DNA from: Tetradesmus obliquus
Taxonomy: Eukaryota > Chlorophyta > Chlorophyceae > Sphaeropleales > Scenedesmaceae
NCBI GenBank assembly: GCA_030272155.1
Contig: CP126191.1
Coordinates: 6,842,501 to 6,906,500, forward strand
Reading direction: 5' to 3'
DNA length: 64,000 bases
A program made the position numbers and the translations under genes. Positions within the stretch are counted from its first letter, which is position 1. Each line of letters starts with the position of its first letter. Positions 7,301 to 50,742 of the stretch are shown piece after piece. The notes beneath the pieces were generated by a model. The model had not been told where the DNA came from, made no database searches, and was given only the letters and a program-made list of their open reading frames with translations.

Positions 7301-7904
7301 GTTGAAGCAGACTGGCAGCTGCAGCACAGCACAACATGCGCTGTGCAACCAGCTGCCAGCTGACTGAAAGTGCTCGACGCCACACACCTTAAAGGTGCAG
7401 GCGGCGTCCACTATTTTGAAGCTGGATCACCATTACCTAAATACACGCATCGCCACACACCTTGGAGTTGCAGGCGGGGTCTAGCAGGCCGGCGATGAAG
7501 GGCTGCTCCGGAGTGGGCCGCTGCAGCACAGCCAGGCAGGGCCAGGCCGGGCAGGCAGGGCCAGGCCGGGCAGGCAGGGCAGCAGGCAGCGCGATGGCAT
7601 GCAGCTTCACTAGGAGGTGGGATACCGTACTGTTGCATATCAATATGCATGTGTCAGCAGCCAGCTCACAGGTGCAACGAGCCCGCAAGCAACCACACTG
7701 AATGCAGCGCTTGTTTACACACACATGCAAGCTGGTCCGTCCTGTGCTGTTTGTGGTGGTATGCGCGCCACGCACCGGCAGCTGGAAGACGCTGAAGGCT
7801 GCCGTGCTGATGATCCAGTCCGGGGTGAGCCCCATGCGCTCAGCAGTGGCACCCAGCCCCGCAGCCTGAGCCAGCAGCTCCTCCTCTGGCAGCACTGCCA
7901 CCTG

Positions 7905-7937
<33 letters not shown>

Positions 7938-10404
7938 GCAGGCCAGCTCAGAGGCAGTGGCCGTGCCAAGTGCTTGAGCAGGACAGCTGCAGCACATGTC
8001 GCAGCTCGCCAGGATACAGCGCGCGCAGCAGCAAGCCTCCCGTCACACGACCTATTGCGTGCTGCGCTGTATGCACACTTTGCGGCACAGCCACTAGTTG
8101 TGGTACTGGGCTGCTGCCGCCGCTGCTGCTACTACCAGCCAGCTGGTTGGCTGCTGCTGCAGCGGCTGCCGGCTCACCGTGTTTGCGGCGCTGCATGCTG
8201 GGCAGGTCCACTGCTGCATGTCTCGGGGGAACTCAGCCGGCGTCAGTGCAGGCGGGCAGCAGCACAGTGCATGCAGCCAGCGCCTGCAGCTGCTGCAGCG
8301 CATGTCAGGCACCTCCTCCCTGCACACGTCACAGCTGCCCCACACATTGCCAGCCACCACACAGCCGCTGCCTGCACTGCTGCTGCTGCTGCTACTGTCA
8401 GCTCCAGCCGACCCTGCGCCTGGTGCAGCACCAACCGCACCACCAACACCAGCTGCTGCTGCTGCTGCTGCCAGCGCAGCAGCTCCCGCGGCATGGCTGC
8501 TGCCGGCTGGCGCGTGCGGGTGCAGCAGCGCATTGAGCCGCTGCCGTGCTGCTGCCTGCAGCGCATCCAGCTGGTAAGTCTTGCCCATGCGGGCCATCCT
8601 GGAGGTCTCCTCCTTTGGGCTGTCTGCCCTGCCTTCCAGCTCATCAATGGTGGCAGTCACCAGCTTCAGCCTGCACGTGTTGTGGCAAGCAGCGCAGTGC
8701 ACAAGCGTGCGGTGGCGAGTATTGATCAAAGCTGACAGGCTGCCATACATCCTCCAGGCACCATAAGAGCTGGTCATCATGCTTTACATGGCAGTCTGGC
8801 GCATCTACTTGTTGCCATCACCAGTTGGAGCTTGGCTCTCATCACACACACCTCACACACCACTTTGTTGGCGCGCTTGCCCCACAGCTGCACAATCTAC
8901 ACAGCAAGCACCATGTTAGCCCAACGCACCACTTTGTCATCTCTCCTTCATAACAGTCAAACATAACACGTTACTTTGATCACTTGTTATCAGCGTAAGC
9001 CTCTGCCCCTCACTTGTTGGCGCGCTTGCCCCACAGCCGCAGCGCCTCCAGCTTCTCACCCTCCGCGCCAGCCTGCCAGCTGCTGAGCTGCTTGGGCGCC
9101 GCCCAGCTGCTGCTGTGCTCGCCGTAGAAGCGCACCAGCAGCTTGCCTGCGGCATGCATTCGGTGTTATGTGGATACGCAGTGCAGAGGTAAGGTGAAGG
9201 GGCTGATGCTCAATTGACCCTTGCACGCGTGCAATCAAACAAAGCAGCCGCTGCTGCTATGCCCTCTCAGTTTCAGCAGCTGCACCAGGCAGGTTGCAGC
9301 AACAAGGCTACATTTGCAGCGGCATTGTTGCGAGCTGTGCCTTGTGATTTGGGCTGCTGCAGGGCGCCCACCTGGCACATAGCTGGTGATGATGTCAGGC
9401 CAGGTGACCTTGGCACACAGCTCCAGGCTCCAGACCAGCGCCGGCCACGCGCAGTAGCCAGCAAGCTGCGGCGGCAGGTGCAGCAGCAAAGAGTCGTACG
9501 CCCACACACAACAGCAGCACTTTGGTTTTGAAAGGTCTGATCATGACGCTCTCACTACAACATCCCAGGCAGCAAGACAGAAGCAGCAAACGCCTGGCAG
9601 TATATCAGGTCAAGGCCAGGTGTATAACAGCCACATTAGTTAGGGTACCGTGCGTGTTTTAACTCAGCTGTGCGGGCCCTAGCAGGGCAGCGCTGCTGCC
9701 AGGCACACCTTGACCCACACTGCTGTGCCCACAGGCAGCGCCCTGCTGCGCACAGCACGCACCTCCGCCAGCACCGACTGCAGGTGGGCGCCTGAAGCAC
9801 AACAGGTGATGCAAACAACAGGTGAGCGCAGTGTGGGGCGCAGCGGCGTTAGAGAGGTTGTGTGTTAAAACTTGCCGCAGCAGCATATGCTCTTTTGAGG
9901 TCCAGGTGCCTGCTGTTCGCACGTGTCAAACAATTCCTTTTCCTATATACATGTCCCTTGCTGCTCTTTGCATTCACGGTCCTCTCTACATGCAGCAAAG
10001 GAGCAGCCAGGGAACTGCCGGCTCCACAAACATCAAGGCATATCTCAAGCTCACCATACAGCAGCGGTCTTGTAAGGATGGGTATCAGCGGCCGGGGTTT
10101 GGGCGGCCTGCCGCGCTTGCGCTTGGTGACCACTGCTGCCTCGCCCTCACCCGCAGCAGCAGCAGCAGGCTGAGCTGGGGCTGGCGGTTTCGGCTGCTGC
10201 TGCTGCTGCTGCTGCGCTGCTGCCTGGGGTCTGCTGCTGGTCTTGCTGCTGTGTTTGACTGCTGCTTCAAACTGGGCGTATGCAGCATCCTCCTCGTGCT
10301 GATGCTGCAGGATGCGGCTGAACGTGTGCTTGTGCGCTTGACGCTTCGAAGGAGGCCTGTGTGGTAGTGGTTGCTGCGGGTGGTGCACGCATGCCTTTGG
10401 CTTG

Positions 10405-10437
<33 letters not shown>

Positions 10438-10622
10438 GCTGGTGACAACGGTGCTGTTGCTGGCTGTGGCTGTTGCAAAGGGTCGGGCGTGCCATCCGCT
10501 GTTGCTGCTGCTGTTAGCTCTTCATCGATTACAGAAGAGTGTTCTGATGTGCCTGCTGCATCTAGCACGTGACCATTCATGATTGTGCATGCCACGGACC
10601 AGTGCAACCAGGTGACCAGCAC
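1..10622 (-). CDS. AT-hook/PWWP/PHD/Dam-like DNA adenine methyltransferase/CW-finger chromatin protein (3' end outside window)
   Basis: Predicted nuclear chromatin protein of at least about 2240 residues. Exons in coding order (approximate): 10055-10622, 9709-9791, 9372-9465, 9014-9146, 8178-8670, 7996-8061, 7776-7901, 7461-7521, 6886-6994, 6035-6235, 5443-5688, 5048-5264, 783-4892, 339-500, 1-80. Most junctions keep frame; the exon ending near 7996 uses a weak donor. Domains in order: AT-hook (KRKRGRPPKPRP), PWWP (GTAVWVK joined to LAGYCAWPALVWS, then LLVRFYGEH), PHD finger (Cys4-His-Cys3, ending WTCPAC), methyltransferase fold of the phage/bacterial Dam family (motif I LLDPACNSK, motif IV NPDF, then NSTDTAYFQRL), CW zinc finger (WVQCSGCGLW, WTCSM, CATPQ), Gln/Ala-rich tail with basic stretches, C-terminal charged helix. 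Inferred role: chromatin-targeted DNA N6-adenine methylation, or reading if inactive. First Met chosen at 10622; an upstream exon is possible. Confidence 0.8.
2437..2534 (+). repeat. (CTGGTG)n hexanucleotide repeat encoding His-Gln
   Basis: About 16 uninterrupted units lie inside the large coding exon. On the minus strand they encode alternating His and Gln. It is the longest pure repeat in the exon. Confidence 0.95.
4320..4366 (+). repeat. (CTG)n tract, poly-Gln in the minus-strand gene
   Basis: Roughly 15 CTG units code for a Gln run. Similar tracts in the same exon lie near 1580-1618, 2055-2096, 3551-3583 and 5033-5042. Confidence 0.95.
5048..5620 (-). other. CW-type zinc finger split by an intron
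   Basis: WVQCSGCGLW ends upstream coding at WTCSM, and splicing from about 5443 to 5264 supplies CATPQ. Together these give the W, C-x2-C, W-x-C and C-x-x-P arrangement of a CW domain. In other proteins CW domains bind methylated histone H3 lysine 4. The match appears only after splicing, which supports both the exon boundaries and the domain call. Confidence 0.82.
6037..7521 (-). other. Dam-like methyltransferase core of the chromatin gene
   Basis: Three exons splice to a continuous peptide with TPEQPF, LLDPACNSK (the DP-containing SAM-binding loop), DDGLKPANAW, LLNPDF and, in the next exon, LLICRNSTDTAYFQRL followed by RRSSAKFKDYDKSPIGFG. The order matches the phage Dam family (DP[AC] loop, DGL...W, NPPY, N[AT]TDT.WF, KF...G). 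The exon before it adds ERMGLTPDWIISTAAFSVF, matching the W-[ST]-TP region that opens that family. NPDF stands where NPPY or NPPF is expected. Confidence 0.72.
7377..7409 (-). repeat. Echo of the methyltransferase motif I exon end plus donor
   Basis: Matches the exon end and donor at 7451-7481 at about 27 of 31 positions, reading VDAACTFK against LDPACNSK, each followed by GTGTGTGGCG. Frame and family alignment select the upstream copy. Confidence 0.72.
7537..7578 (+). repeat. 19-bp tandem repeat in an intron
   Basis: Two complete copies of a GC-rich 19-bp unit (cagggccaggccgggcagg) and a partial third lie next to the methyltransferase exon, in the intron upstream of it on the coding strand. 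Confidence 0.85.
8178..8450 (-). other. PHD finger
   Basis: The translated segment shows CDVC, MRCSSC, WLHALC and WTCPAC with spacing of a Cys4-His-Cys3 PHD finger. It is preceded by a long Ala/Ser linker and followed directly by a splice donor. PHD fingers usually read histone H3 tails. Confidence 0.82.
8864..8887 (-). repeat. Echo of the PWWP-side exon end in the following intron
   Basis: A 23-base exact copy of the coding end LWGKRANK (real copy 9014-9037) lies about 150 bases into the intron. Splicing from 9014 to 8670 gives RANK-LKLVTATIDELEG in frame. The echo can be read only by an alternative route. Confidence 0.82.
9014..9791 (-). other. PWWP domain spread over three exons
   Basis: Spliced sequence reads VGTAVWVK, LAGYCAWPALVWSLELCAKV, then YVPGKLLVRFYGEHSSSW. 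This fits the PWWP pattern of a V-W-x-K strand, a G-Y-x-x-WPA core (here CAWP) and a V-R-F-[FY]-G strand. Phases at both internal introns agree. Confidence 0.8.
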
Positions 10623-11943
10623 AGCAACCTCTTGCTGTGCACCCGGATCCTGTTCAAACCCCAGATCACGCTACAACTCAATAACATATATCATACCAAG
10701 TGATGTATGCCCTTCAACAAGCAAGGGAGTACGCCCGGGCGGAGCACGACGACATGTCGATATGCAGCTTCCGGAACAGGGAATGAACAGGATCCTTGTA
10801 CACGTACATAAGATAGCAGCCGATATGAAGCAAGCAAGCACATTCCTGTTCTGTTGTTGCAACGCAGGTAACACGGCAGTCACTTGCCGCTCCCGTCAGC
10901 TGGTGACCAGTGCCACTGCAGGGCCTGCCACGTGGATGCGCACCAGAGGCACCAAGTCCATCATGCTACCCAATAGCTGCTTGCACTTGCTTACATTCTG
11001 AAGGTGACTCGATTGCAAGCATTTGCCAATGCTACATGGACACTGAGTGAGGCTGAAGTGTCTGTCCAACTGTATCCTCCAGCATGATGTGAGTACTTTG
11101 TTTTTGTGAATACTTTACAAGGTTGTCCAGGCCAAACTTGCAACAGCAATGCCCAACACCGCTACCAACCCTCAACCAAGAAGACAGCAACACACTGCAC
11201 TGCCGGCGCGAAGGCACCCTGTGCAGACAAGTGCAATCTGAACAGCACAAACAAACACAGTGCATGCCTGAAACAGGCAGAAGGCCCTAGCCTGCTGGCG
11301 CTAGGCTAGAATGCTTGGTGCAGTGAGATGAGTGACTGCCAAGCCTGCCCAAAGCAAAATTTATGGGCGGCCTGGAGTGCAGAACGCAGCCGCAGCTGTG
11401 TGCAACGATTGAGGAAGAACAATGCTAGGGGCGCATGAGTTTGCTCAAAGCACACAACCACACAATGTTCTGCTGCCAATGCATCCAGCACAGCTGTTTG
11501 CTCAACCACATTGCTGGATGGCAGCCAAGCCTGCCAGCACCTTGATTGTACAGCACGCCTGCACACAGCAGCATCGCCTGCCCACGGACAACCCCTCTGT
11601 AAATGCGCCTGCCAAGTATCTGCAGCCGCTGCAGCCACCACCAACTCACAAAACCCAAACAGTGGACAACTCACATGCTGAGGGCAGCACTGCGCCGCAG
11701 CTCAGCCAGTTGACCGGCCAGGCAGCAGCCCCCCTCCCTACTGGAGCCCCAGGGCTCCCTGACGCACACACAAACAGCACACCCCCGACAGACACACCAG
11801 GCAAACACAAGAGGCCACGCGTCCTTGCCGAGCTGCAGTGCTAGCGCTGCTGCTGCACAGGCAGGGCGTCAGTGCCGCTCAAACATTATGTGCACACAAG
11901 CGACTCAAGCCACAACATGCACAGCTAAACATGTTATAACGCC
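10623..11943. other. Intergenic: upstream of the chromatin gene and 3' region of the pyrophosphorylase gene
   Basis: No open frame here reads as a conserved protein. Both neighbours are on the minus strand, so this should hold the 5' region of the chromatin gene and the long 3' untranslated region of the pyrophosphorylase. TTACA on the plus strand (TGTAA on the minus, the usual green-algal poly(A) signal) occurs near 10985 and 11113. Confidence 0.6.
11111..11117 (-). terminator. Candidate TGTAA poly(A) signal for the pyrophosphorylase gene
   Basis: TGTAA on the minus strand, about 830 bases after the stop. A second copy lies near 10985. The motif is short, so this is only a candidate. Confidence 0.3.
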
Positions 11944-14900
11944 TCAAATGACGGTGCCGCTGGGGATGACGCTGTCCTTGATGACGCACACGATGCCGTC
12001 GCGGATCATGAAGCCCTCAGCCTCGCGGTTGGCCTCCTGCACGTTGTCCTTGTTCAGGATCTGCACACGCTCGCCGATGCGCGCGTTCTTGTCAATCAGC
12101 GCCTTGCGGATGTGGCTGCCGTTGCCCACACCCATGGGCAGGCAGCCTGGCCGGGGCAGCAGCAGCAGCAGCAGCAGCAGGCACAGACGGTGTCAGAGGC
12201 ACAGGTGTCACAGCCACTTGCAGGAGAGGTGAGCCTGTTGGCTGCCGGCAAGAGGAGCAGGTGCAGCAACGAAAGCAACATCTACAATCCAGCAGCATAT
12301 GCGCAGCAAGCAGCCACGCAAATCCTGTCACACCCTGAGCACTCACTTCCTGCCCTCGCCTGCCCTCCCACACCACAATCCAGTGCTGCGCACAACACCA
12401 CCGCCCAATACACACATCGCCACAGAGCAACACAAATAGCATCTCCCCTGTCCCACGCCGCGCCTCACCCGCCACTCAGGCACACTCCTCCACGGCCAGC
12501 TACATGCGCGACAGCGTACACAGAACACACCTACATACGACTCATCCCTTTCTTGCCACCCGACCACACCAAATCCACCCCCCTCCCCAGCCGCGCCACC
12601 TCACCTGGCACCCAGGCGCACTCCTCCACCGTCTCGTAGTAGTCGCTGCCCAGCATGAGCGTGTCCTCCATGACCACGTCCTCGCCGATCAAGCTGCGCA
12701 GGCCGATGATGCTGTTGGACACGCGGCTGCGCGCCTTGATGTTGGAGCCGTCGCCGATGATGGCGTTGCGCACCACCACGTCCTGCAGCACCTTGCTGGG
12801 AGGCAGGAAGCGGCTCATGGTGTAGATGGGAGCCTCCTTGTCGTAGAAGCTGCGGGGGAGGGGGGGGGGGGAAGAGATACAGGGAGGAGCAGGGGGGGAA
12901 GAGGTACAGCAGGAGGCACAGCAGGCGTTTGAGTTGAGGTGTGGTGTTGCATGTAGTGTTCCAATGGTTGAACAGCTGGGCTGGTAGGTGACAAGCGTGC
13001 ATGTGCCTGCAGAGGATTTCATAATCCAATGCAGTGATACCGGCAGCTCCATTCGTGAAAGAGAAAGTTGCCAAAGCCAGCGCTGCAACGCCCCGCGCAG
13101 CAATAGCCACCAAATGCACATCTCAGAGCGGCAAGGCACGCAGAGCCATACAGGGCAGATGCTTGCAGCGTGCTTGCTCGCGCGTGCTGCAGTGCATCAA
13201 CTGATGCGGTTGCAGCCGCTGCCGTGCGCACCTGAAGTTTGCGCTGCCGTCTGTCTTGACCAGGGCCAGGTTTGCGTTGTAGAAGGCCTCAATGGTTCCG
13301 ATGTCCTCCCAGTAGCCCTGGAAGGCGTACGCCTGCAGCAGCAGCAGCAGCAGCAGCAGCAGGCAAGACACAGAAACAATCAGGCACCACCTCCTATGGC
13401 AACACAAGCACTCAGAACACAGCCCCAGCTGCCACACACTTTGCACACAGTTGCAGAAGCTGTCTTGTCTGCTTCAAGTCACTAATCAACTGGCGCTGAA
13501 GTCAACTAGTCAGCTGGTGCTGCTGCCTGTCCTCCAAGCATTCTGAGACATTCCTTGTCCTTCCTGTACCCTTGCTTGGACCCACATGGGATGTCTGAGC
13601 ATCCTCTGCCTCAGATGTTCGAGTACAAGCCCCCTCACAGATGAACAAATAGGCCCACCACAGTTGCTGCTAACTCCACCGCCGCACCCTCTCAGCCTGC
13701 CGCATGGACGTACCACCACTGCTGCTGCCTACTCCGCCACCACTGCACCCTGCCGCCCTGCCCTGCAGCCCACCCTTGCTGCACCCCGGCCCCTCTCAAA
13801 AACGCACCTGCACCGGGTAGCCCATCTTGCGCGCCTCAGGGATGACCTCATTGCCAAAGTCGTTGGCTGTGGGCATGTGGTTCTCCAGCAGCTCCTTGAG
13901 CACATTAGCAGTCATCACATAGATGCCCATGGACGCAATGTACGGCTTCTCAGCAGCGCTGCGCAAGCAACAGAGGGCCAGCAACACAGTCAGCAGCAGG
14001 CAAAACAAGTCGTGCCCGGGGTCAGCAGACAAGCAGCAGGCGGCAGAATGCATGCAGTAGGACGAGCGCTGCAGTGCAGCATTCGCTGCCAGTCCTATTG
14101 AACCCAGGCTGATGCCAGCTGAGCCACAACCCTGCCCAGCACTGTCGACGATGGCAAAGATACACAGCATCTGCTGCCCGACCAAACTGCTGCGTAAGCA
14201 TCGCGAACAAAACAAAACAAATCATCTGCGCCAGCAGCAGCAGCCCGCTCACGTCTTTGCGTCCACGCCCAGCACGGTGGTGTCCACCTGCATCGCCTTG
14301 AGCGCGTCACCGCTCGGCTTCTCAGCAAACTCGATCACCCTGCCCTCATCGTCAATCTTCATGAGGCCGAACGCGCTGGCGCGCTTCTCGTCGCAGGGCA
14401 GTGCCGCAATGGTGATGGCTGCGCCGCTCTCGCGGTGCTTGCGCACAAACTCCTTGTAGTCCATGCGGTACAGGTGGTCGCCTGACAGCAGCAGCGCGGC
14501 CAGCAGGCAGTTGCAACAACATATGGGTGCTTGCGCACAAAATCCTTGTGATCGATGCGGTACAGGTGGTCGCCTGGTCAGGTGGTGGCGGCGGGTGCCA
14601 GCAGGCAGGTGCAACAACAAAGGTGCTCGAGTAATACGTGTGGAAAGGGCTAGCGCGCGGTATTGCAGATGGATCGACCCCCTGTGCAGTGTTCTGCTCC
14701 TGCTGGCAGGTGGTGTCCCTGCCGCTGCAGCTTCTTTCTCATGTGCCCCCTGTTGAAAACTCATCCTACGATTGCGCATGATGCTGCTGACAATGATGGA
14801 TTGCTAACAACTGTCCACCAAACGCCACACACTAGCACTCCACTGCCCAGCCCCCGCCCTGTACTGCTGCTGCTGCTGCTGCTGCACGTGCAAGATCATC

Positions 14901-16585
14901 CTGCGCCCACCCACGCACCTGACAGGATGAGGAAGTCCTGCACGCCGTCGCGCATGGCCTCCTCAAACAGCCACATGTACTGCCGCACTGCATCAGCAGT
15001 GCCCTGGAACCACTCCTTGCGCACGTTGCTCTGGCTGGCTGCCAGCACCTCAACAAAGCCGCGGCTGGTGTACGCGCCCACGCTGCTGTTCTGCGGCGCG
15101 CAAGACATGACAGGCAGGACAAGGGCACGCAGGAGGTACAAGCTCAGCAGCAGTGGCGGCATCATTGGGTGCTCAGGCCTGGCTGCTGGAGTGCCTTCAT
15201 TTGGTCAGTGGCGATGAATATTGTGCTTGTAAGAGCCTGCGACAAACGCAAGGCAGCTGCATGCAGGCCGCACAGCTGTGCTTGATTCCTCTGCCAGACC
15301 ACATCCCGCACTGTGCCCTGCAACCTGCCACAGTGCTGCTGCTGCTGCTGCTGCTGCTGCGAGGCACTCACGTATGCCTGCGACAGGTGCCTGTTGAGCG
15401 ACGCGGAGTTGAACTGCGTGAGGCAGTAGATCTTGGTCACGTTGCTGTTCACGCAGTTGGACACGGGGATGTCGATGAGGCGGTAGTTGGCGCCCAGCGG
15501 CACCGCGGGCTTGGCGCGCTTCTTGGTCAGCGGGTACAGCCGCGTGCCTGCGCCGCCACCCAGGATGATGCCCAGCACCGTCTGCATTTGCGACCAGGGA
15601 CAGCAGGCGCATCGCCATTGACGAGGCAGGCACAGCGTCAACACAGGGAAAGGATGATGCCCAGCATGGTGTTCTTCTTCATATTGCTGTTTGCGCACTG
15701 CCAGGTGATGTGCTGTGCTGCGTCTCCACCGGCAGCATGTTACATTGGCAGTGAGGTTGGCTTGCAATCAGAAAAGTTCAGAAAACCACTGCGGGGCTGG
15801 ACTTCTGCTGTTAGTGGCCACGGCCGTGGCTCCTGCTGTCTACTGCTGTGGATGGCCTAGCCGACTGCAATGCTTGCCAGCAGAGCAACGATGCAGCAGC
15901 ATACCAGGCGTCATGGCTGATAATCCCCTTGCATGGATGGGGACCAGATGCTGCAGCAGGGTGTAACTGTCAAAGTATTGCTGCTCATTGCATACAAGGC
16001 CGTGATCAGGCCCTGATTCTATCAGGCGAAGATCCCGGTTACTGCATTAGGCGCTGAACTGCAGTGCTGCACTGGCCGTAGTCCCAATTCAGGCTGATCA
16101 GATTGGCCAACGCAGCTCAATACCCATGGCTATATCGACACATACACTGCGAGCCCTCCAGCGGCCTAGATGCTTTGTCCAGAGCTGAACTCGCAGCGCA
16201 CCTTGCTCATGTCCAAATCATCCTTGCCTGCTCCCGTCAGTGCACCAACAGCAATCCCAGGCAGTGACTCAACGGATTGCAGAGGAGGAGGGATAGGCTG
16301 CTGCGTCTGCAGTGCCTGCGCCCTGCTCACGACCACCTGCGAAGAGGGGAGAGCCAGGCTCAGTGCCCGATCAAGCCAGGTGCCTGACACGCCTGGGAGC
16401 TGATTGCGCACCTTTGAACCCACACGAATGCCCTTGTGCACACCATGCCTTGGAGCCAGGCGCTGGCCAGCGATCGAGCGCACAGAGCTCAGGCCACCTG
16501 TGCAGATTGTGCAAGTACATGAGCTCCCGAACAGACCCTCGCAAGGGAAACTACCTGCAACGCTGACTATATGTATTAAACGCAC
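11944..16585 (-). CDS. STA6: Glucose-1-phosphate adenylyltransferase (ADP-glucose pyrophosphorylase) small subunit, chloroplast
   Basis: Makes ADP-glucose from glucose 1-phosphate and ATP, the committed step of starch synthesis in the plastid. Exons in coding order: 16412-16585, 16202-16336, 15372-15581, 14919-15090, 14253-14481, 13808-13958, 13232-13332, 12605-12849, 11944-12146; summed length 1620 bases, 539 residues. Motifs: [14 protein letters not shown] (nucleotide binding), [79 protein letters not shown], and the C-terminal beta-helix ending IPSGTVI. FNSASLN and the final block fit the small (catalytic) rather than the large subunit. The first two exons are basic and Ser/Ala-rich with [13 protein letters not shown], consistent with a plastid transit peptide. 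The start Met at 16585 is the least certain point; a shorter peptide or an upstream exon is possible. Confidence 0.93.
12852..12873 (+). repeat. Poly-G tract (poly-C on the coding strand) at a splice acceptor
   Basis: A nearly pure run of G follows the exon end at 12849. On the coding strand it is a C-rich pyrimidine tract leading into the acceptor of the exon starting FYDKEAP. Confidence 0.8.
14525..14573 (-). repeat. Echo of a pyrophosphorylase exon start inside the preceding intron
   Basis: A 48-base block matches the first bases of the real exon (14434-14481) at about 44 positions and is likewise preceded by an AG acceptor. It would encode [16 protein letters not shown] against [16 protein letters not shown]. 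The splice phase and the family alignment select the copy ending at 14481. Confidence 0.88.
15651..15670 (-). repeat. Echo of the exon encoding TVLGIIL in the upstream intron
   Basis: The intron carries a 16-base exact match to the start of the exon beginning at 15581 (TMLGIIL against TVLGIIL). It has no in-frame continuation into the glycine-rich loop. Confidence 0.6.
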
Positions 16586-17155: not shown

Positions 17156-19665
17156 TCACCAATGCCACCGCTGAAGTTGCTGCATCCCTGCTGGCTGCAT
17201 TGGTCCTGGGCACACTGCTGACACGCCCGCATGTGCTGGCTGTTGCGGCCATGTCCCAGCAATACCTGGCACAGCCGGCCAAACAGAATGGATGGTAGCA
17301 GATGCAGGCCAACTTAATGCATGCTGCTGTACCTGCTGCTGCTGCTGCTGCTGCCAAGCAGCTCCTGCTGCTAGCTGCCGTTGCCTTGATGCAGCAGTTG
17401 CCCCTGCCTGTGCATCTGCCTCTACATTGCTCGCTTCCTGATGTGCTTTCAGCAGCTCCAAAACACCCTGTTGCACCCACTGCTGCAAGCTCCCCTGTTT
17501 CCCAACCCCTGCCGCTGCTTCTGCTTCTGCTGCAGCTGCTGCGCTGTGCGCTGACGAATCAGCGCACAGAAAAGCGTCGTGCGACACAGCTGCAGCTGCC
17601 AGAGCAGCACTGCGTGACAGCACAGCCCCCTGCACTGCGCCCAGTCTAAACTTAGCGCGCAGAGGCTGCAGCTGGTGTGCCTTCACACCGCTACCCCTCA
17701 GGTCCAAGAAGATGATGTCAGGGCAGCACAGCAGCAGCTCTGCAGCCCTGGCTGTCACGCGTGTGTGTGCCAGGTGCCACTGGCGTATGCACGTCCTGCA
17801 AGCCAAGCAGCAGCACACGCGTCAGGTGCAGAAGGACATGACCTGCACCTGTCTGAGCTGTTGCTGGCTATGCAGCTAGTGCAGTCAAAAACAACGGCTT
17901 CAGACTCCTAACATGTTGAGAATGTTGTCCTTAACACTGGCAATGTGGCGCGCGTGCACGCCCACAGTGTGCTGTGCGCCGCATCTTTTCACTGATCAGA
18001 TTGGAAGAGTCGATCACTACTGCGCTGACTGGCCCCAGCTGGCCCTCAAACTACGCACCTAGGCCAATCACCAACTGCTTGGTCCAGTTGTGCAACCGCC
18101 TGAGTCTGCTCGCAGCTGCCCCCTTGTTGCTGCTGCTGCTGCTGTTGCCGCTGCCACTCGTGCAGCCTGCTGCCGTACGTCAGCCACTCAATGGTTGCGT
18201 CGCTGCAGCTGGTGGCGCTGAGCTGCAGCACCAGCAGCTGCTTCAGCTGTACCAGGGTGGGCGCCAGGCTGTCTGACACCTGGCCCAGGCCTGACAGGTC
18301 CAGAGCCAGCAGCTGCAACACAAGCAACAGCAGCAGCAGGGGGGTGGAGGGGTGGAACTGTCAGTCGGTGTGAGTGTGTTTGAGCCACCCCTGACAGGTC
18401 CAGTGCCAGCAGCTGCAAGAAGCACCAGCAGCAGCAGGGAGAGCAGAAGCAACAGCAGCATGAGCAGTTCTGATATGGGTGCACATATAAGCCAGTTCGT
18501 TTTACATGCAAGCCTGTTGTGCGTTGACGGCTGCTGCAACGCTGAATGCTGATAGTGCACGCAGCATCCGCACTGCAGCCTCAGCACAGGCTAGCAAGAC
18601 GCTGCAGGCCAGCTGCGCACTGCTCCACGCTTCTCAACACCCTGCAATCAAATCAGCGCCATTCACACTGAATCAGTGTACTCTTATACAAGATCTGCAC
18701 TGCATCCACGGGGCTGTGCCGGCATCACCTGCGGCATTGCCGCCAGCAGCTGCTGCAGCGCCTCAGGTGTCACGCTGCTGCAGCCGCGCAGGCCCAGGCA
18801 GGTCAGCCGCCGCAGTGGGGCCAGGTCTGACAGGCTGGCTGCTGCTGGGCAGGCCAGCTGCAGGTGGGCCAGGCTGGCTGAGAAAGCAGCAAGCTCATGC
18901 AGTGCCTGGCTGGAGGTGGGTGTGGTGCCTGGCAGGCTGAGGGCCAGTGCCTGAGGCTGCCTGCAGGGCGGGTGGCAGTGTGATGCCATGGTACAGTGTG
19001 TTATTGCAGTGCGGTGATGGCCTAGGGGACGCTGCAAAGTAAAGGCACAAGCACCTGCAGGAGGTTTGCGGGAGCTGTGGCAGTGAGAATGCTAGCAGTA
19101 CCAGGGTAAGAGCAGCAGCGGCAACACTGGGCATGCACTGCAGCGTGCAGGCGCACATTGTGCTGTGACGAAAACTGCTGCTGCTGATGGAGCTGTGCAA
19201 GCTGGCTGGGCCCCACTTGTATCTTATCTAAGCGCCAGCGCTGCACGCAAGCCACGCACCAGCAGGTTGCAAACTGGCGCAGTGCTGCCAGGTGTGCAGC
19301 AGGGCTGTGGATGCCAGCAGCACGCCGTGCATTGGCGATTGCGGTGTACCAGCTGTACACGCGCTGCACAAGCTCTGGGATAGGCAGTGCCTCGCCTGCA
19401 TACGTCCAAACGAGGCTTCTAGTCAGCTAGGCTTATGTGCTTGCGTCAGCAGCATGAGCAGCTGTGCGCTTGCAAAAGCAACGTGAACAGGTGCAGCAGC
19501 AGCAAGGGCAGCAGCAGCACCACCATTTATCCTATGTGCAGCGTAGCAAGCTCATACTGCAATGAGCGTTTCACGAAGGTGATACTCACAGGTGAATGTA
19601 ACCTCGTATGGCATGCGGCGCGCAACGGTTTCGATGCAGATGTCCTGCAGTGATGGCACGGTCAT
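17156..19665 (-). CDS. Leucine-rich-repeat protein
   Basis: Exons supported by frame continuity: 19590-19665, 19260-19395, 18729-18960, 18059-18312, 17966-18024. Coding resumes around 17330-17799, but the last junctions are not settled. It starts MTVPSLQDICIETVARR, a helical N-terminus like those of LRR or F-box-like adaptors. Repeats include LRRLTCLGLRGCSSVTPEAL, LLALDLSGLGQVSDSLAP, LLVLQLSATSCSDATI and IIFLDLRGSGV, the cysteine-containing LRR type found in ubiquitin-ligase substrate adaptors. A Gln run interrupts the protein and the C-terminus is Ala-rich. The role is inferred to be protein-protein binding; no catalytic domain is visible. The start ATG faces the methyltransferase gene 264 bases away. 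Confidence 0.7.
18391..18437 (-). repeat. Echo of an LRR exon start plus acceptor in the upstream intron
   Basis: The block repeats the 5' end of the exon ending at 18312, including the acceptor and adjoining CTG-rich tract. Both copies encode LLALDLSG. The two copies are about 100 bases apart. Confidence 0.85.
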
Positions 19666-20527: not shown

Positions 20528-20571
<44 letters not shown>

Positions 20572-20747: not shown

Positions 20748-20781
<34 letters not shown>

Positions 20782-38800: not shown

Positions 38801-41800
38801 GCCTTTGTCCCCACTTCCAGCACTACCAACTTCATACCTCCTTTCCCCCAACCACCACCCTCCTGCAATCCCTTTGCAGGCCGCAGCGCGCCTGCTGGAC
38901 AGCTGGGATGAGGTCAACCGCCAGCAGGCAGCGCTGGTCATGTTCCACCCTGACACAGCAGGCACCGCAGCCATCCAGGCGCAGCTGCCACTGGAGCCTG
39001 CCCTGGCCAGCCTGCAGGACGGCATCCAGGGCTCCTTTGCAGCCATCAGCAGCAACATGGAGGACCTGGAGCAGCAGCTGGAGCGCTGGCAGCAGCAGGT
39101 GGGGCCGCCAGCAGCAGCAGCAGCAGCAGCGCAGCAGGGGAGCGGCTTGAAGGCTGGCGGGCTGCGGCAGGCAGCAGCAACGCCTGGCGGGCTGTTTGGC
39201 GGCAGGGCCGCCGGTGGTTTTGGCGCTGCGGGCGGGGCATTTGGGGGCTTAGGGTTGAAGGCGAGCCCCTGGGGTTTGGGATCTGCGGGCGGCAAGAGCA
39301 GCAGCAGGGTTGTGGGCATGGCAGCCGCCTCTCCTTCAGCGTCAGGGCGAGCAGGAGGCATGTCGCCGGCGCTGCAGCAGCAGGACGGCAGCGCGCAGCT
39401 GGAGCTGCTGTACCAGGTGCTGGCAGCGCAGCAGGACACCGCTTCGAACCTCACCATGCGCATTGACAGCTTGGCGCAGCAGCTGGAGCTGCTGGGGGTG
39501 ATCAAGACAGACACCGAGCACCAGGGCGGCAGGACGCTGGGGAGGTGGGGCGAGGAGCTGAGCGGTGACGGCTCAGATGATGATGGCGGCTACGGTAGTG
39601 AGGCGGAAGGGGATGAGAACGAGTACGAGCGCGCAGGGCCCTCCTCGCTGAATGCAGCAGCAGCAGCAGCAGCAGCAGGGGATGCGGCGACAGGGTCCCC
39701 CGCCAAGTTCAGCCTGCGCACACCGAGCACTACTACTGCTGCTGGCTCCAAGACAGGCGGCTCGTTTGCTAGCACCTGGACAGGCGGCGCTGCCGCTGCT
39801 GCTGCTGCTGGCTCTGCTCTGAAGACACCCAGCAGCCAGCAGCAGCAGCAGCAGCAGCGATCCGGCCAGGCTAGAGGCAGCCACCTGGACAGCGTAGGCA
39901 AGCTGCACTGGGTGACGCCCGGCTCCTCACCTGCCAAGTCGGGGCAGCGCAGCCGGCTGACACCTGGCGGCTCAGGCGCGCGCGTGCTTGGGGGCTCAGC
40001 GGTCAAGGGCAGCAGCAGCGCAAGCAGCAACGCGGCGTGGCGCCAGCTTGCCTCGGAACTCAGCAACAGCGCCAGCAGGGGCTCTGCATCAGCAGCAGCG
40101 TCAGGCAGTGGGGCCAAGCCGCGCGTGCGCACCACAGTTGCAACGCCGCTGCCGTCAAGCACCCGCAGCAGCAGCAGGTCAGCTGCACGAGCAGCAGCGG
40201 CAGCGGCAGCTGAGGTGGTGTCTCCGCCTCGGCCGCCATCACCGCTGCAGATCTCTGCTGCTGCTGGCACGGCAGGCACTGCAGCAGCAGCAACTGCTAA
40301 TCCTTCAGCCCGCTTCAGCTTCCCTGGCCAGCCAGCCGGCACTCCAGCAGCAGCAGCAGCCGGCAACGCAGCACCAGCCGCACCAGGGTTCAGCACACCT
40401 GCTGCTGCGGCAAGGCTGCCAGGCAAGCTCAGCTTCTCACCGGCAGCAGCAGCAGCAGCGTCACCCGCTACACCGCCAAACCCCTCCCCAGCCGGCAACA
40501 TGTTTGGTGCAACACCTAGCCCTGCAGCTTCAGGCAAGGAGACCCCGGCAGCAGCAGGTGGCGGCAGCAGCGGCTTTGGTTTCTTCTCGCACGCAAACCC
40601 TCTGTACGACGTCAAAACCCCGATGGGAAGTGCTGGTGCACCCTCACCCATTGCAGCAGTGCCCTCACCTGCACTGCAGTTTGGCAGCACGCCAGGCTCC
40701 AGCTCAGGCGCAGCAGCCAGTCAATCAGGCAGCGCTGCAGCCCCAGCACCTGCTGCTGCTGCTGCCAAGCCTCCTGCAGGCCGGCCTGCTGCTGCTGCCA
40801 AGCCCAAGTCTAGCCAGCCGCCAGAGCCACCAATGGCTGCACTGCAGCAGGCTGCTGCATTCCAGCGGCAGGTGCTGCGGCAGGACTCTGTTGGCTCCAC
40901 CGGCAGCAGCCCACCACCACAGGCTGCTGCCGCTGCTGCTGCCAAGCCGGCAGCAGCCAAGCCAGCAGCAGCTAAGCCCGCAGAGCCAGCACCAGCAGCC
41001 GCTCCAGCAGCAGCAGCGGCAGCAGCACAGAAGCCTGCAGGCCCCAATGCCGCAATGCTGGCGGCAGCAGCAGCTGCCGCCAACCGCGTGCTTGCCAGCC
41101 AGGCACAGGACGAGCAGCGCGCAGCAGCAGCAGCAGCAGCAGCCAAGCCCAAGGCGGCATCTAGCCAGCCTCCCGAGCCGCTTGCTGCACTGACACGCGA
41201 GGCTGGGGCAGCGCTGCAGCGCCTAAGTGCTGCTGGAGGCTCAGCAGCAGCAGCAGCAGCCAAGCCCAAGGCTAGCAGCCAGCCTCCCGAGCCGCCCAGC
41301 ACCATGCTGCAGGCAGCTGCACAGGCTGGCAGCAAGCTACTAGCGCAAGCTGCAGCAGCAGGCGGCGGCAGCAAGCCTGCTGCTGCCTCTGCCTCATCAG
41401 CTGCTGCAGCAGGCGGTGGCAGCACTGCAGCTCCTTTTGGGTCCAGCAGTAGCGCAGGAGCATTCGGCACCAGCAGCACTGCCGGGCTGTTTGGCAGCAG
41501 CAGCGCTGCGGGCGGCTTCGGCAGCAGCACCGCAGGCAGCGGCGGTGGGTTTGGGTCATTTGGGTTTGGGTCTGCAGCAGCACCCACCAGCTCTCCTCTG
41601 TTTGGTGGCGCCAGCGGTGCTGCTAGCGGCAGCCAGGCCAGCAGCAGCGCAGCAGCCGTCAGCAGCAATGCAGCTGATGCGCTGAATGCAATGCTGGGCG
41701 CTCAGGAGGGTGGTGGTGCATCATTTGGTGGCTTTGGCGCACTGGGCTTAGGTGGAGAGGCCTCTCCTCGCGCTGGTGGCGCCCCAGCCAGCAGCGCAGC

Positions 41801-43136
41801 AGCATCTGCGCCTGCATTTGGGTTTGGGGCAGCCAGCTCAGGGCCAGCTGCTGGTGGTGCATTTGGCGCCTTTGGCGGCAGCGCAAGCAGCGCAGCAGCA
41901 TCAGGTGGAGCATCTGCCCCGGCATTTGGCACAGGTGGTGCATTCGGCGCTGCCAGCAGTGGCGCCAGCACAGGATTTGCCGGCGGTGCCTTTGGCTTCA
42001 GTGGAAGCGCCAGCAGCGCAGCAGCAGGCAGCAGCGGCGCCGCAGGTGGCGTTTTTGGTAGCAACGCCTTTGGCGGCGCGAGCAGTGCAGCTGCTAGCGG
42101 CGGCGGCTTATTTGGTGCTCTTGGTACTGGCAGCAGCAGCGGGGCGGCAGGCACCACATCAGTGTTTGGCGGCGCCAGCAGCAGCGCTGGTGGTGCCAGC
42201 AGCCCATTCGGTGCTCTGCTATCCGGTAGCAGTGCGGCTTCAACAGGGTTGTCTGTGTTTGGCTCTGCCACGCCTGCTGCTGCTGCTCCAAGCTCACCTT
42301 TTGGCGCGCCTGCTTCCCCAGCAACTGGCGGGGTGTTCGGCGGTGCCAGCAACGCAACAGGATCAGCAGGCTTTGGCCAAGCTTCGCCGTTTGGTACACC
42401 AGCAGCAGCACCAGCCTCGCCCTTTGGTGGCAGTGCAGCAGCAGCAGGCAGCCCTTTTGGCACTCCAGCTGCCACGAGCACGCCAGCGTTTGGTGCGCAG
42501 AGCAGCACGCCAGCTTTTGGCACGCCATCAAGCACGCCTGCATTCGGCACACCCAGCAGTGCAGCCGGCACAGGCACTGGTGTGTTTGGTGGCTTCGGCA
42601 GTCCCGCACCTTTTGGACAGCAGCAGCAGCAGCAGCAGTCTGGCGGTAGCACTGCGTCATCGCCATTCGGCGCTGCATTTGGCCAGCCTGCACAGCCCGG
42701 TGGTGCATTTGGACAGCCTGCTGCCTTTGGACAGCAGCAGCAGCAGCCGGCAGGCGGCTTTGGGCAGCCCTCTGCCTTCGGGCAGCAGGCAGCGCCTGCA
42801 GCGGCGTTTGGCCAGGCAGCTGCGTTTGGGCAGGCGTCGACGCCAGCAGCAGCATTTGGCCAGGCCAGTGCATTTGGCGCTGCTGCCAGCAGCCCTCCCA
42901 GCGGAGGCTTTGCTGCATTCGCTGCTCCTGCCAGCCAGGCGCCTGGCTCGGGTGGCAGCGGCTTTGCTGCATTTGCTGCTCCAGGCGGCACAGGGTTTGG
43001 CGCACTGGCTGGGGGTGGGGCCGGCGGCAGCACGCCTTTCGGGGCTGGTACGTTTGGGGGTGCGCCTGCTGGTGGCGCGTTTGGCTCGACTGCATCAACG
43101 CAGCAGTCCAGCATGTGGGGCGGTCCGAGGCGCTAA
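32838..43136 (+). CDS. NUP214: FG nucleoporin, NUP214/Nup159 type
   Basis: Cytoplasmic-side nuclear pore component that anchors mRNA export factors. Exons: 32838-33015, 33223-33280, 33892-34343, 34573-34784, 35079-35327, 35576-35791, 36111-36555, 36719-37441, 37671-38137, 38358-38543, 38880-43136; total 7443 bases, 2480 residues, all phases agreeing. The N-terminal ~420 residues look like a beta-propeller (VCVASLPLPGVTSLSLS, AAWSPDGQHIAYSS, VAPWQLLVHGHRKS, AVLLAASVDGVLRLYRL). Next come an acidic linker, FG repeats, and an exon without Met carrying PGFVFTTGQHGTGYYKDAAP, the GF...GYY motif seen at the same place in relatives. Coiled-coil segments (FLSSLHQVAQLSAQMQQL, ISSNMEDLEQQLERW) are followed by a very long Ala/Ser/Gly FG-repeat tail. 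The last exon is 4.3 kb. It would be under-annotated by ATG-only gene finding. Confidence 0.88.
39170..43136 (+). other. Low-complexity FG-repeat tail
   Basis: Many FG, GxFG and PxFG units sit in Ala/Ser/Gly-rich sequence, densest after 41430. Clusters such as PAFG[TA] recur with regular spacing. This composition is expected of the disordered permeability-barrier part of a nucleoporin. The repeat composition leaves long open frames on both strands; these are not genes. Confidence 0.9.
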
Positions 43137-43758
43137 TTGCTGTGCTGTGTTGCCGTCGACGGTTAGGTGGCAGCTTGCAATGAGCAGTATGGCTTGCGAA
43201 TGCCAGGCAGGGGTGGGTTCCTGTCTGCACTAGATGCCTGCAGCAAGATGTGGCACAGCTGTGCAGTAAGGCGGGAAAGTGATGTGTCCAGCGTTGGTTG
43301 CGGTCATGCAGGGTCGCCATTTGTAGGTTGTGACTGTTTTGCTTAGACGTTTTCTATTACCACGACTGTTCAAGGCGCGGCGGTTATGGGCGTGTCTCCC
43401 GATCAACCGAAGGGCGCCGGGCTCTCCGGGTGACACCCTGGATCCGCCACGTGACATCTACTGCTTGACGAGTACCAAAGGTCGCAGCAAAGTACATGCG
43501 TATATGTGCAGCGGTCATTTATACTCTCGTATCTTGTGTTCCCTCGTTTCGGCAACGCGCGCGGCAGTACACAACACCAGCCATTGCAAACGCGCTCTAT
43601 TCAGCTGTGAAAGTAAAATAATCACTTATTACATACTATTCACCAATTTAGCTTTACAGGGTGCGTAAGGGGAGACACTGCAGTGCTGTTGCGAGATGGT
43701 GGAGCAGAAGTATCGGCCATGAGGCATATACGCCTACAGGAGGAGTTGTGAGCTTTAC
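43137..43758. other. Intergenic between nucleoporin and glycosyltransferase genes
   Basis: Composition changes here from CAG-rich to mixed, with an AT-rich stretch at 43610-43670. A block beginning TGTAGG near 43322 and ending CCTACA near 43738 could be an old inserted element, but no target duplication was found. The glycosyltransferase promoter must lie at its right end. Confidence 0.45.
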
Positions 43759-44884: not shown

Positions 44885-44918
<34 letters not shown>

Positions 44919-45113
44919 GGCAAGTCCCAATGACACCTCCAGCAGCAGTGCTGCACTGCCGCAACGCACGCTCCTGGGCAGAGGCTGGATGCCTGACAGC
45001 TTGAGCAGCGGCCTCAGCAGCAGCAGCAGCAGCGGCGGCGGCGGCGGCGGCGGCAGCATTGGTGATACCACAGCAAACACCATGCAGACGGCTGCTTCAG
45101 GCAGTGCCAGCAC

Positions 45114-45160
<47 letters not shown>

Positions 45161-45236
45161 ATAACACCAGTGAAGTAACAGCCCCTGGCAAGCAAGATGC
45201 TGCCTACTTCCCATTCACGCCTGCTAGTAACAGCAG

Positions 45237-45272
<36 letters not shown>

Positions 45273-46660: not shown

Positions 46661-48705
46661 TGCATGGAGGGAGTTTTGGGGGTTAGCCTTGCTGAGGGTA
46701 TGCTGGCGGAGAGTGCAATGGGGGACATGAGATGGACGGCTTGAGGTGGTTATTCCTGGGGCATGTTGGCGTTGTTACGCATGGAGCATCACTTGTGCAG
46801 CATTGTTGGTGTTGAAAGGTTGGTTGGGAGCGTTATCCATCACAAAAGGCAATCCTTGTTTTGTCAATCGTGTGATCAGCCAGACGTGGGGCTTGCTTGT
46901 CGGGTTGGCGGGTTGTAGGGGTTTGAGGTGGCAGGCCTGATGCAGTTGGGCAATCCGATTGAGAGTCTTCAGGTAGCTCTCAAAGGTTTGCTGCTGCAGC
47001 CTTGTGTGCAATACCCCAGTCCCTGCAACAGGACTTTCAATGATCTGCAGCGCCAGCATACCACTGCTGTGTGCAGGAGGATGCTGTTTTGCTGCTGCAC
47101 ACTATCAACGAATGAATCATTACTGGGCTCCACTGAAGCTCAGGGCTTCCAGTCGGCCCCATGGGGCTCTGAAATATATTGCAAGGGCACACGCTGTACA
47201 CCGTGTGCCCAGGTTGAGACGATCTGCACGTATGAACACATTGTACGCTGCCTGGGCTTGATCAACATGGTGGCCACCATCGGCACTGCTGACTAGGCGC
47301 CCCGGCAGTATGTTCTTACTCCCTGTTACCGCTAGAACAGGCGGCCGTGCAGCGTATGTGGTGGCCCAATGTCTGCGCTGAGGCGTCTGCATCAGCTGAT
47401 GCCGCCGGCGGCATCCACTGGCTGGGAGCGCACCCATGCATGCATGTATACACACTGCGGCGTTACTTGTACGCATGTAGCGCGTATGCACAGCGCTGAC
47501 AGACGGCGGTAATGCGTCTTGGATTCGGGTACATGTAACACTGGTACCTGACCGATCCTGAGGCCGGCGCAATGTGATCGTGCACATGAGCTGGTGTAAT
47601 ACGCCTAGGCATCAAGTTGACAAGAGTCATCATTATGTTTCAATGTAAGCCGCAGCTTACAAGATGGGATGCACTTCTTTCTACCACACTCCAGAGTTGC
47701 ACTTCAGGGCTGCAAGTGACACGACGTAACAGCCATCTGCTGCTCCTGCCTTATAAACTACACCGGCACACTGCAAAAGGACGACTGTATCAAGGTGATG
47801 GGTTCTAAACCACCAAGGCCAATCATACCTGCCCACCTTCAAACAACGTCGCGCCACGGCAGCTATCCCAGCTGCGAGTTGCGGTGTAGCACACCAGTAG
47901 CACACCAACTGATTCCCACAGTACAATATGACAGCTGCCACAGCTGCCTCATGCCCGGAGGTGCACCTAGGTGCCACGTGGCAGACTACCATCCGACAGG
48001 CGTCCCAGCATGCAGCCAAAATAATGTGATCTGGTGTACATGACGTGCTCCGCTTCCTTGCTGTCACTATACCTTGTCATGCAGGCAGACACCAGCGCAA
48101 GTCAACCATGCCGTGACACCTGCGGCATCCAACCGCATCCCCTAGGTGAAGCCGTCCTGCACAGCCGCTGTGCATGGGCAATGTGCCAATGCCAGCCACG
48201 AGAGTGCTCATCCAGGAAGTAAATCGCTGTGCTGATCATGAACATGACGCTGCCACACTCGGCGTCAGTATTTGTACATGCACCACTTGGCCCGTACTTG
48301 CTCCAACACTATCTATCATCCACACAAGCCACCACAGGCACGCACACCATTCGTCATCACCAGAACCATCAAGCAGAAACGCTCAGCCTGAGTCTGTGCA
48401 TGTGCTGTGTATAACAGAGGACGCCCAGGTGTATATACATGTTTGACATATGATCTGATACGATTGTAGTTTACTACCTACATGTGAAGATGGACATGTG
48501 TTGAGCAAAAGCTGCATGATCTGTGAAAGCCTTGTCAGCTGCTTCATGAAGGCTGCGCGCTGCAGTCATGGCCACGTGTGCCAGCAAAGCTCGTGCAAGG
48601 CCAACACGAGCATGGCAGCCAGCATGCCAGTCCATCTACAGTAAAAATAGTCGTCCAGCCAAGCCATGACCCCAGCACAGCCAAGCACCTCTCAATGAAT
48701 GGTCA
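46661..48705. other. Two-kilobase stretch without a recognisable gene
   Basis: No frame shows splice-consistent coding sequence. It lies between the 3' ends of two converging genes, so part must be 3' untranslated. TGTAA occurs near 47535 and 47644 on the plus strand and TTACA near 47655. CAG repeats are almost absent, unlike the coding regions. Confidence 0.5.
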
Positions 48706-50598
48706 AGGCGCCTTCTCTTTGATGCTTTTTGGCTCAGCGCCGTAGTGCAACCAGCGCCTAGCCTGTGCGGCAGGGGAGGCAAGTTGCACAACAACACATG
48801 CTGGCTTAGTATGCTGCACTAGGCGACAATGCAAAGGTCACTGCAGGCGGGCAAAACAGTGTGGCAGTAGCCCCAGCTGCGGCCAGCTAGGTGCTTCACT
48901 GCAAGCGTCTGAACTAAACAGAGGCATGTACTATGTGCCAGCAATGCTGCGGCGTCTACTCACAAAGCCCTCCAGCCACATATCAAAGCCGGACTTGGGA
49001 TACGGCAGCCCAGGCACTAGCCAAGGCCGCTCCTTTGTCCCAACCACCTCTGCACAGCGGAGCAGCATGAACACAGCCCACATTTAAAATGCGTGAGGTT
49101 CATGTAGCGTGCCGCGGTGTAGAATGGCTGCAGCCAAGCCTTCATGCTGTGATCACAATAACATGCCTCGCTAACAAAAGCATTAGCAGCTAGCACGCCT
49201 CAGCTGCTGGTGCACATGGTGCGCCTGACAGCCAGCTCTGCAGCTGCACAGGGCCGCTGCCGGCTGCCTCCTATGACTGCCAGCAGGCGCAGGCTGGGCA
49301 GCCTTGCCATGACCGCCGCTGCAAGCACATGCAGACCTCACCTTCTGCTTCCCATGCTGTGGGAGGAGTAGTTTCTGTGGGAGGCACACGAGTGCAAGCA
49401 AGGACATACAGGCAGGGCGCGCAGCAAATGAATGGAAATCGCTTTGGGATGACAATTTACAGCTGCACACAGCACACAGGAGCATGATTTATGGTGATGT
49501 TAGGGCTGCCTGTTGTTGACGTGACAGTGTTCCAGGACACTTCAAGCATACTGCAAGTGCGCCTAGCAAAGCGCTGCCTGCAAGGACAGCCCAGCTTGCG
49601 TACCAGATGAGTTGAAATTGACGGGCACTAAATCAGAATACAATGTCTGAAAAAATGAACTGCGATGCGACATCACCACGCCGTAGTTTGTTGCTGGTCT
49701 GTGGCTGCACCGTTCACACTCTGATGCCAGGTCGCAGGCTGCGCCAGCTGCATATGCAGACCTCCTGGCGCATATAAAAATTTTCTTGTCGGGTACCTCG
49801 CCTGTTGCAGAGGCTGTTATGCACTTGACCCAGCACCCTGCCTGCTGTCTGCCGTCCCGCCGCACTTGCTTGCATCAGCCGCTCTTCCTTCTGCTTCAGC
49901 TCTGCTAGCTGCTGGATGCATGACAGCTCAAGGGCGCTGCCTTCAGCAGAAGTTCGCAACAGCGAAACCACCTTCCATTTCAACCAGCACTTCCTCAAGG
50001 GTTTCTGGTGCCTCAGCCTGCGGGCCTGCTGCTGCTGCCCCTTCCATCCGCGCTCCTGCGGCATAACACAGGGTCGTGCACTCAGTCAAAAGCAGCAGCT
50101 CATGGTTTAAATTCGGAGAACATGTTGCTGAAGTCAAGTTGCTGCGGAGCAACAAAGACCACCGGAATCACCTCGATGGTGCCCTGAGTGGATATGTGCA
50201 GATGCTTCGAATCGCCCAAAGAAACATACAGCTGTAAGAGATCTGAAACAATTTATATCTCCTGAACGGCCCACTGCTTGTGCTGCAGGCTAGATGCCAG
50301 CCAGTTGCTGCGAAGCAACAAAAACATAACACATCAACGTTACACCGGCCCGGTGTGGTGGCCTCTTGGCCACATGGCCACGTGTGTATACTCGACACAC
50401 AGAGGTAGCTATGGCAGTGCACCGTGATCGTTTCTATTTAGACCATGACAAGTGCTGGGTTTCACTAGCACTGAGACTCACCTGAGGTTTGCTGTGATGG
50501 TGGAGGCAAAGGTGATGCTGAAGGTGACACAGGTAGTGCAGGTGATGGTGAAGGTGATCGTGACACACATGACCCGTCTGTCAACATGAAAGTCGCCG
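48706..50598 (-). CDS. Unidentified multi-exon gene with phase-1 introns (5' end not found)
   Basis: Exons in coding order: 50482-50598, 50172-50231, 49972-50055, 49825-49940, 49604-49801, 49342-49374, 49216-49318, 49082-49146, then about 48964-49053 and 48706-48775. The first six junctions are all phase 1 and keep one open frame. Peptide landmarks: a Pro/Ser linker (RSPSPSPALPVSPSASP), LAELKQKEERLMQASAAGR (helical), KKIFICARRSAYAAGAACD, MSHRSSFFQTLYSDLVPV, PFYTAARYMNLTHFK, PWLVPGLPYPKSGFDMW, and ending HYGAEPKSIKEKAP. No family was recognised. Between 49054 and 49081 the frame shifts by one base with no room for an intron; reading straight on stops near 49018 instead. Upstream exons probably exist. 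Confidence 0.5.
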
Positions 50599-50687
50599 CT
50601 GTGCAGGTGCTGACTGTAACAAGGTGGTTCATTTACTAACACCACATCAATGGGGTACCGTACCCCGGCATGCAGAGTGAACACTGC

Positions 50688-50742
50688 AGAATCCTGCAGG
50701 ATAAGAGTAAGTGCAGAATCCTGCAGGACATTGAGCACTGGA
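50688..50742 (-). repeat. 27-bp tandem duplication with acceptor-like sequence
   Basis: Two copies of a block containing GCAGAATCCTGCAGGA lie 27 bases apart. On the minus strand each has CTGCAG followed by GATTCTGCA, so each could act as a splice acceptor with the same downstream residues (DSA). Confidence 0.75.

Follow-up and report, generated by a model that had tools for sequence, protein, structure and literature searches.

Copies of adjoining exon ends in introns of the green alga Tetradesmus obliquus

A 64-kb stretch of the Tetradesmus obliquus genome (contig CP126191.1 of assembly GCA_030272155.1, positions 6842501-6906500; hereafter the window) carries genes whose introns contain diverged copies of the adjoining exon ends, which we call echoes. 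A preliminary description of the window had flagged six such places and proposed that each copy carries a splice site, that introns grow or arise by this route and that the process is unusually active here. We assessed these claims in a 264-kb sample consisting of the window and four 50-kb blocks of the same genome, which totals 104,662,953 bases in 17 contigs; the available part of PMC12571836 tabulates this assembly at 104.70 Mb, 17 contigs and 56.5% GC, and another at 100.30 Mb and 17 contigs. The GC content is 59.9% in the window versus 56.7-58.4% in the four blocks. Gene models were predicted with a small gene finder trained on the 264 kb, which learned donor sites near CAG/GTGAG and acceptor sites ending in TGCAG/ and yielded 495 exons and 462 introns, with a median predicted intron length of 223 bases. 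Because some echoes are called as exons by this gene finder, the intron and echo counts given below are approximate.

Echoes in the window

The echoes and their sources lie as follows, in window coordinates.

7378..7408, minus strand: echo, donor type, of the end of predicted exon 7461-7520 (27 of 31 bases, distance 73, donor GTGTGT)
7451..7481, minus strand: source of echo 7378-7408, exon end plus donor
8865..8892, minus strand: echo of the end of predicted exon 9014-9146 (27 of 28 bases, distance 149, no donor GT)
9014..9041, minus strand: source of echo 8865-8892
12463..12493, minus strand: echo, donor type, additional to those first flagged (27 of 31 bases, distance 136, donor GTGAGG retained)
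12599..12629, minus strand: source of echo 12463-12493, end of predicted exon 12605-12849
14434..14484, minus strand: source, start of ADP-glucose pyrophosphorylase (AGPase) exon 14253-14481 plus acceptor (PF00483, E 3e-62)
14526..14576, minus strand: echo, acceptor type, of the AGPase exon start (47 of 51 bases, distance 92)
14499..14521, minus strand: first copy of the intronic portion of the AGPase unit (repeated at 14597-14619, distance 98)
14597..14619, minus strand: second copy of the intronic portion of the AGPase unit (repeated at 14499-14521)
15562..15577, minus strand: 16 bases near the start of AGPase exon 15303-15581 (exact match to 15651-15666)
15651..15666, minus strand: weak echo without acceptor, stopping 4 bases from the junction
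18290..18316, minus strand: source, start of predicted exon 18059-18312 plus acceptor
18390..18416, minus strand: echo, acceptor type (26 of 27 bases, distance 100, TTGCAG retained)
50685..50728, no strand assigned: 17-base exact repeat, distance 27, not an exon echo

At five of the six flagged places the end of the adjoining exon is repeated locally in direct orientation, and the splice dinucleotide is copied in three of the six. The echo at 7377-7409 keeps its donor and that at 18391-18437 its acceptor; the match at 14525-14573 (the AGPase gene, assigned by its PF00483 match) is the longest and clearest of the six, and those at 7377-7409, 8864-8887 and 18391-18437 are clear as well. At 14525-14573 the adjoining piece of intron has been duplicated too, with insertions and deletions, and the AG of the echo is retained but scores weakly as an acceptor. 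The notion that each copy carries a splice site does not extend to the other three. The echo at 8864-8887 lacks GT at the donor position, the exact 16-base match at 15651-15670 ends before the predicted junction, and 50688-50742 is a plain repeat where no exon is predicted. Near exon 7461-7520 and its echo there is also a perfect 19-base tandem repeat of 2.5 copies (7533-7580).

Frequency, anatomy and intron length

To count local copies, short-period repeats such as CAG (3-7% of bases) were masked and ungapped self-matches were scored in direct orientation at 15-600 bases, with direct matches at 3000-3585 bases and inverted matches as controls. At a score of at least 17, adjacent direct copies far exceed both controls, as local tandem duplication entails: 252 raw matches (208 after overlaps were collapsed) versus 3 distant and 7 inverted. 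The window contributes 30, versus 1 distant and 1 inverted.

Exon ends were then aligned, with gaps, to introns by using at most 70 bases of flanking exon and counting scores of at least 30 as echoes; flanks were long enough on 403 donor and 410 acceptor sides. Among the 456 introns with both flanks, 52 (about 1 in 9, or roughly 11%) hold a copy of the adjoining exon end, compared with one intron each when reverse-complemented or foreign introns were substituted. The 59 hits divide into 29 on the donor side and 30 on the acceptor side. Exon ends match their own intron in 42 of 442 cases and the intron at the exon's other end in 1 of 442, so the copies are confined to the adjoining intron. This self-alignment, which the preliminary description had proposed as a check, thus revealed an excess over composition in the sample, rather than the chance-level frequency named there as the opposing outcome.

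Echoes are a real and dense feature of all five sampled blocks, and the window is a poor sample of them. Echo introns number 17 of 90, 9 of 80, 8 of 78 and 14 of 105 in the four blocks and 4 of 103 in the window (4/103 versus 48/353 elsewhere, Fisher p 0.0045), which reverses the earlier impression of unusual local activity. The genome is indeed rich in CAG runs, with 134,639 forward and 137,421 reverse matches to (CAG)6, and chance matches from such composition could in principle mimic echoes. The masked comparison (252 versus 3 and 7) and both intron controls (52 versus 1 and 1; 42 versus 1 of 442) reject this explanation in the sample, and we consider it almost certainly wrong. As a separate observation, the backwards pattern of (CAG)6 has 6 forward matches and 1 reverse match genome-wide.

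The echoes share a characteristic anatomy. The median distance from echo to source is 120 bases (quartiles 108.5-137), with 47 of the 59 at 80-160 bases, and the same number extend to within 3 bases of the junction. Collapsed pairs scoring at least 15 have their main cluster at 90-150 bases and a further hump at 220-290; short repeats at 10-40 form a group of their own. Pairs touching a junction fall at 90-150 bases in 57 of 107 cases and pairs without a junction in 20 of 35, the same peak range, although many of the latter sit in the same arrays as the former. Matches reach a median of 44 (donor) or 54 (acceptor) bases into the exon and only 6 and 7 bases into the intron (107 donor and 87 acceptor rows, which are not independent). 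Close to the junction the exon sides average about 0.9 identity, which drops at the edge of the splice signal (44 donors, 31 acceptors).

A tandem unit requires that the spacers following its two copies be homologous. Spacer similarity was detected at p<0.05 in 43 of 66 pairs and at p<0.01 in 35, the remainder being below detection, and with this result the idea that echoes are exon pieces inserted without intron was dropped. The exon half carries 8.9 mismatches and 0.67 gaps per 100 bases and the alignable spacers (25 of 47) carry 16.2 and 6.7, figures obtained with different gap costs. The 66 clusters comprise 50 that touch a junction, 8 within exons, 4 within introns and 4 between genes.

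Several repeats outside this pattern were also seen. The last 50 bases of one predicted coding sequence, up to its TAG stop (L025:8925-8974), recur 125 bases downstream at L025:9050-9099 with 98% identity, and an exact 35-base repeat (L017:6872-6906 and 7003-7037, distance 131) lies where no gene is predicted, an instance of the same distance class outside genes. Predicted non-coding sequence at window positions 60112-60335 holds three overlapping repeats at distances of 98-120. Repeats internal to exons have distances that are multiples of 3 in 17 of 17 cases, a regularity partly built in by the gene finder and left out of the evidence. The long predicted plus-strand exon 38880-43136 contains dense in-frame repeats with many TTTGG motifs (41463-42982); it may encode an FG-repeat nucleoporin.

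Arrays are common, with at least three copies in 20 of 68 repeat families. The RAD54 array (L027:480-2000) has six copies of one exon end, which follow each other every 131-143 bases and between which at least four distinct spacers occur. The ClpP array (L010:8400-10000 and L011:1-600) consists of five copies with a spacing of 118 bases, among them near-identical full units (98% over 422 bases). Homologues of known structure hold the segment once, namely 1z3i for RAD54 and 7eko_L, a very close match that is presumably a Chlamydomonas protein, for ClpP. In several arrays, echoes were called as exons by the gene finder.

Introns with echoes are longer than those without (median 333.5 versus 213 bases, Mann-Whitney p 2e-6), and subtracting the repeat distance returns the median to 212. 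Longer introns also offer more room for matches, so this difference is support for intron growth rather than proof of it; with that reservation, the earlier suggestion that introns grow by duplication of splice-site-bearing segments holds. Echo sites reach at least the tenth percentile of predicted real sites in 39 of 48 donor-type and 25 of 33 acceptor-type cases, and they may possibly act as decoy splice sites. Predicted introns without an echo (n=365) exhibit a weak length periodicity with a best period of 130 bases (p 0.017 over all periods tried) and a phase near 85; among 212 more confident introns the best period is 68 (p 0.0075), and a period of 120 has p 0.031.

Origin of the echoes

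We consider it probable (roughly 0.65) that recurrent short tandem duplication across splice junctions, in units of about 90-150 bases with a mode near 120, lengthens introns. Such direct duplications would arise at many places in the genome, with repair or replication presumably setting the unit size; this size ruler might stem from duplication at unprocessed Okazaki flaps or staggered nicks. Because the original splice site still works, a gene with a duplication over one junction stays readable, and the duplicate would add to the intron, outside the main mRNA, a second exon end together with its splice site and tens of bases of intronic sequence. Each event would lengthen the intron by roughly one unit, with recurrence at some loci.

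Intron gain, which had also been suggested, fares poorly. Tandem duplication of AGGT-bearing exon pieces is an established model of gain, and the consulted passages of PMC4974935 describe a potato duplicate that spans an intron-exon boundary. This model expects the repeat distance to equal the intron length, a condition seen in 2 of 59 echoes, both at falsely predicted exons (3 and 9 bases), and no convincing gain was seen among the 59 echoes. Moreover, matched donors and acceptors inside copies occur mainly at the existing junction and seldom within the copied exon. We therefore regard gain as a very improbable source of the echoes.

How the copies have diverged bears on whether echoes could be functional alternative exon ends, kept by selection and spliced in at times. 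Across 62 junctions, differences between exon and echo fall at codon positions 1, 2 and 3 in 52, 39 and 150 cases, and the synonymous share is 0.558 (0.479-0.634; omega about 0.54) versus 0.39-0.41 expected, from the substitution spectrum of the spacers, for a free echo and a constrained exon. The share is 0.657 in pairs of at least 0.94 identity (35 differences) versus 0.541 in distant pairs. Differences between echoes (27, 39 and 72 by position), the scarcity of gaps in the exon half and retention of the splice dinucleotide in 51 of 58 donor and 36 of 37 acceptor pairs likewise favour function. Yet 5 in-frame stops occur among 240 differences (8.7 expected if free), repeat distances do not keep to multiples of three (counts 34, 43, 30), and homologous proteins hold one copy. 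In five homology-checked genes, 42 pairs, several of which have copies in common, give position totals of 31, 34 and 109 and include 4 stops. A partner site that would complete an exon barely exceeds its control (donor type 0.65 versus 0.54; acceptor type 0.49 versus 0.42); accordingly, complete cassette exons bounded by acceptor and donor, as tandem exon duplication would produce, were rejected, although single loci may differ. Spacers are often unalignable beside exon halves that are 97-100% identical, and since some of these pairs are almost without synonymous change, protein constraint cannot explain them. Function as a general account is thus unlikely.

Simple duplication followed by neutral decay is nevertheless not the whole explanation, and several results weigh against the duplication model in that form. 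Simulated neutral echoes give an intron-side match of 12-34 bases versus 6-7 observed, 1.2-2.8 exon gaps per 100 versus 0.67, and a third-position share of 0.40-0.53 versus 0.62. The 50 junction-touching and 4 intron-only clusters correspond to a junction share of 93%, whereas random placement of unit-sized pieces predicts 57-60% for neutral echoes (p below 1e-7) and 62-80% for constrained ones (p 7e-7 to 0.025). In the 16 pairs whose exon halves are at least 97% identical, the intron sides are often hardly more alike than unrelated sequence (median identity 0.71; control mean 0.57). In addition, every gene model is the product of a custom gene finder. The misfit thus lies in diverged intron halves, synonymous exon differences, excess junctions and rare intron-only duplications. 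Pure constraint fits no better, as simulated constrained echoes have too high a third-position share (0.73-0.75 versus 0.62) and too few gaps. Short-tract gene conversion, which predicts no synonymous excess, was set aside by argument alone.

We tentatively suggest that many duplications join two diverged haplotypes, such that at birth the copies would already differ as alleles do. If the introns of the two haplotypes already differed strongly, this would explain at once why close pairs show a synonymous excess, why spacers have diverged and why intron-only duplications escape detection. The assembly of strain DOE0152z reached 208 Mb, nearly double that of UTEX393 (PMC5552973), and the available part of PMC7955037 describes a related strain as likely diploid, with its alleles separated; these reports make diverged haplotypes plausible in this group. 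Repair that invades the homologous chromosome in an exon and ends by joining in an intron would yield such echoes. One-sided invasion of this kind is a repair route known from plant work. A counterpoint comes from arrays that combine several different spacers, for which two haplotypes and a single event would not suffice.

An assembler that stutters at exon-intron edges, where two haplotypes cease to resemble each other, would give the same outcome as one-sided invasion, and multi-spacer arrays strain both. Exon halves that differ as alleles do, diverged spacers, the few wholly intronic copies and the same two strain reports all suit such an assembly fault. Against it stand the near-identical full ClpP units, the six RAD54 copies with at least four different spacers, the stops and unusual residues that make echoes unlike a working allele, and the absence of N bases from the 264 kb. 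On balance an assembly fault is improbable. A fuller version of the duplication model is more speculative, and we hold it as doubtful but possible: splice junctions would be hot spots of duplication between diverged haplotypes with a ruler of about 120 bases, giving stepwise intron growth and arrays of extra splice sites, some under selection. If it is true, intron lengths should peak at intervals of about 120 bases, and a weak hint of this was seen.

Relation to known systems and meaning

Local duplication across a splice junction is already known from single cases. In the passages of PMC4974935 on a potato RdRp gene, a tandem duplication across an intron-exon boundary resembles the echoes, and the first intron holds a second, 83-base tandem duplication. 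The potato case concerns a single gene and created a new intron, whereas here about 11% of sampled introns are involved and no convincing new intron was found. The intron-gain model and Drosophila cases in the consulted part of PMC2891723 similarly duplicate a piece bearing splice signals, but that model copies exon sequence and creates an intron equal in length to the repeat distance, while here both the copied junction and the lengthened intron were there beforehand.

Relatives of Chlamydomonas have median intron lengths of 198-343 bases, compared with 223 here, and the driver of intron length among them is likely ancient (passages of PMC8226300). In contrast to the present case, those passages name no duplication process for the long introns. 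The main text of the Scenedesmus obliquus genome paper (PMC7590803) does not contain the word 'intron'. In the open-access papers searched, we found no report of exon-end echoes in green algae, nor of their density, preferred distance or lengthening of introns.

Like echoes, introner elements act on introns genome-wide, and their inserted sequences share a family across loci. No such family emerged from 231 cross-locus comparisons of a subset of spacers. Scores were slightly higher in direct orientation (mean 17.4, maximum 40) than reverse-complemented (15.8, 32) or shuffled (15.9, 32).

By simple scaling from 52 per 264 kb to 104.66 Mb, the genome would hold about 20,000 echo introns. Gene finders may call such copies as exons, and if the echoes were an assembly fault, this would be of consequence for a reference genome. 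If they are genuine, they would supply natural experiments on how the spliceosome chooses between near-identical neighbouring sites. The cause of long introns in Chlamydomonas relatives is left open in the passages of PMC8226300, and frequent duplication of junctions in units of about 120 bases would give a concrete explanation of intron growth in green algae, one whose events can be counted.

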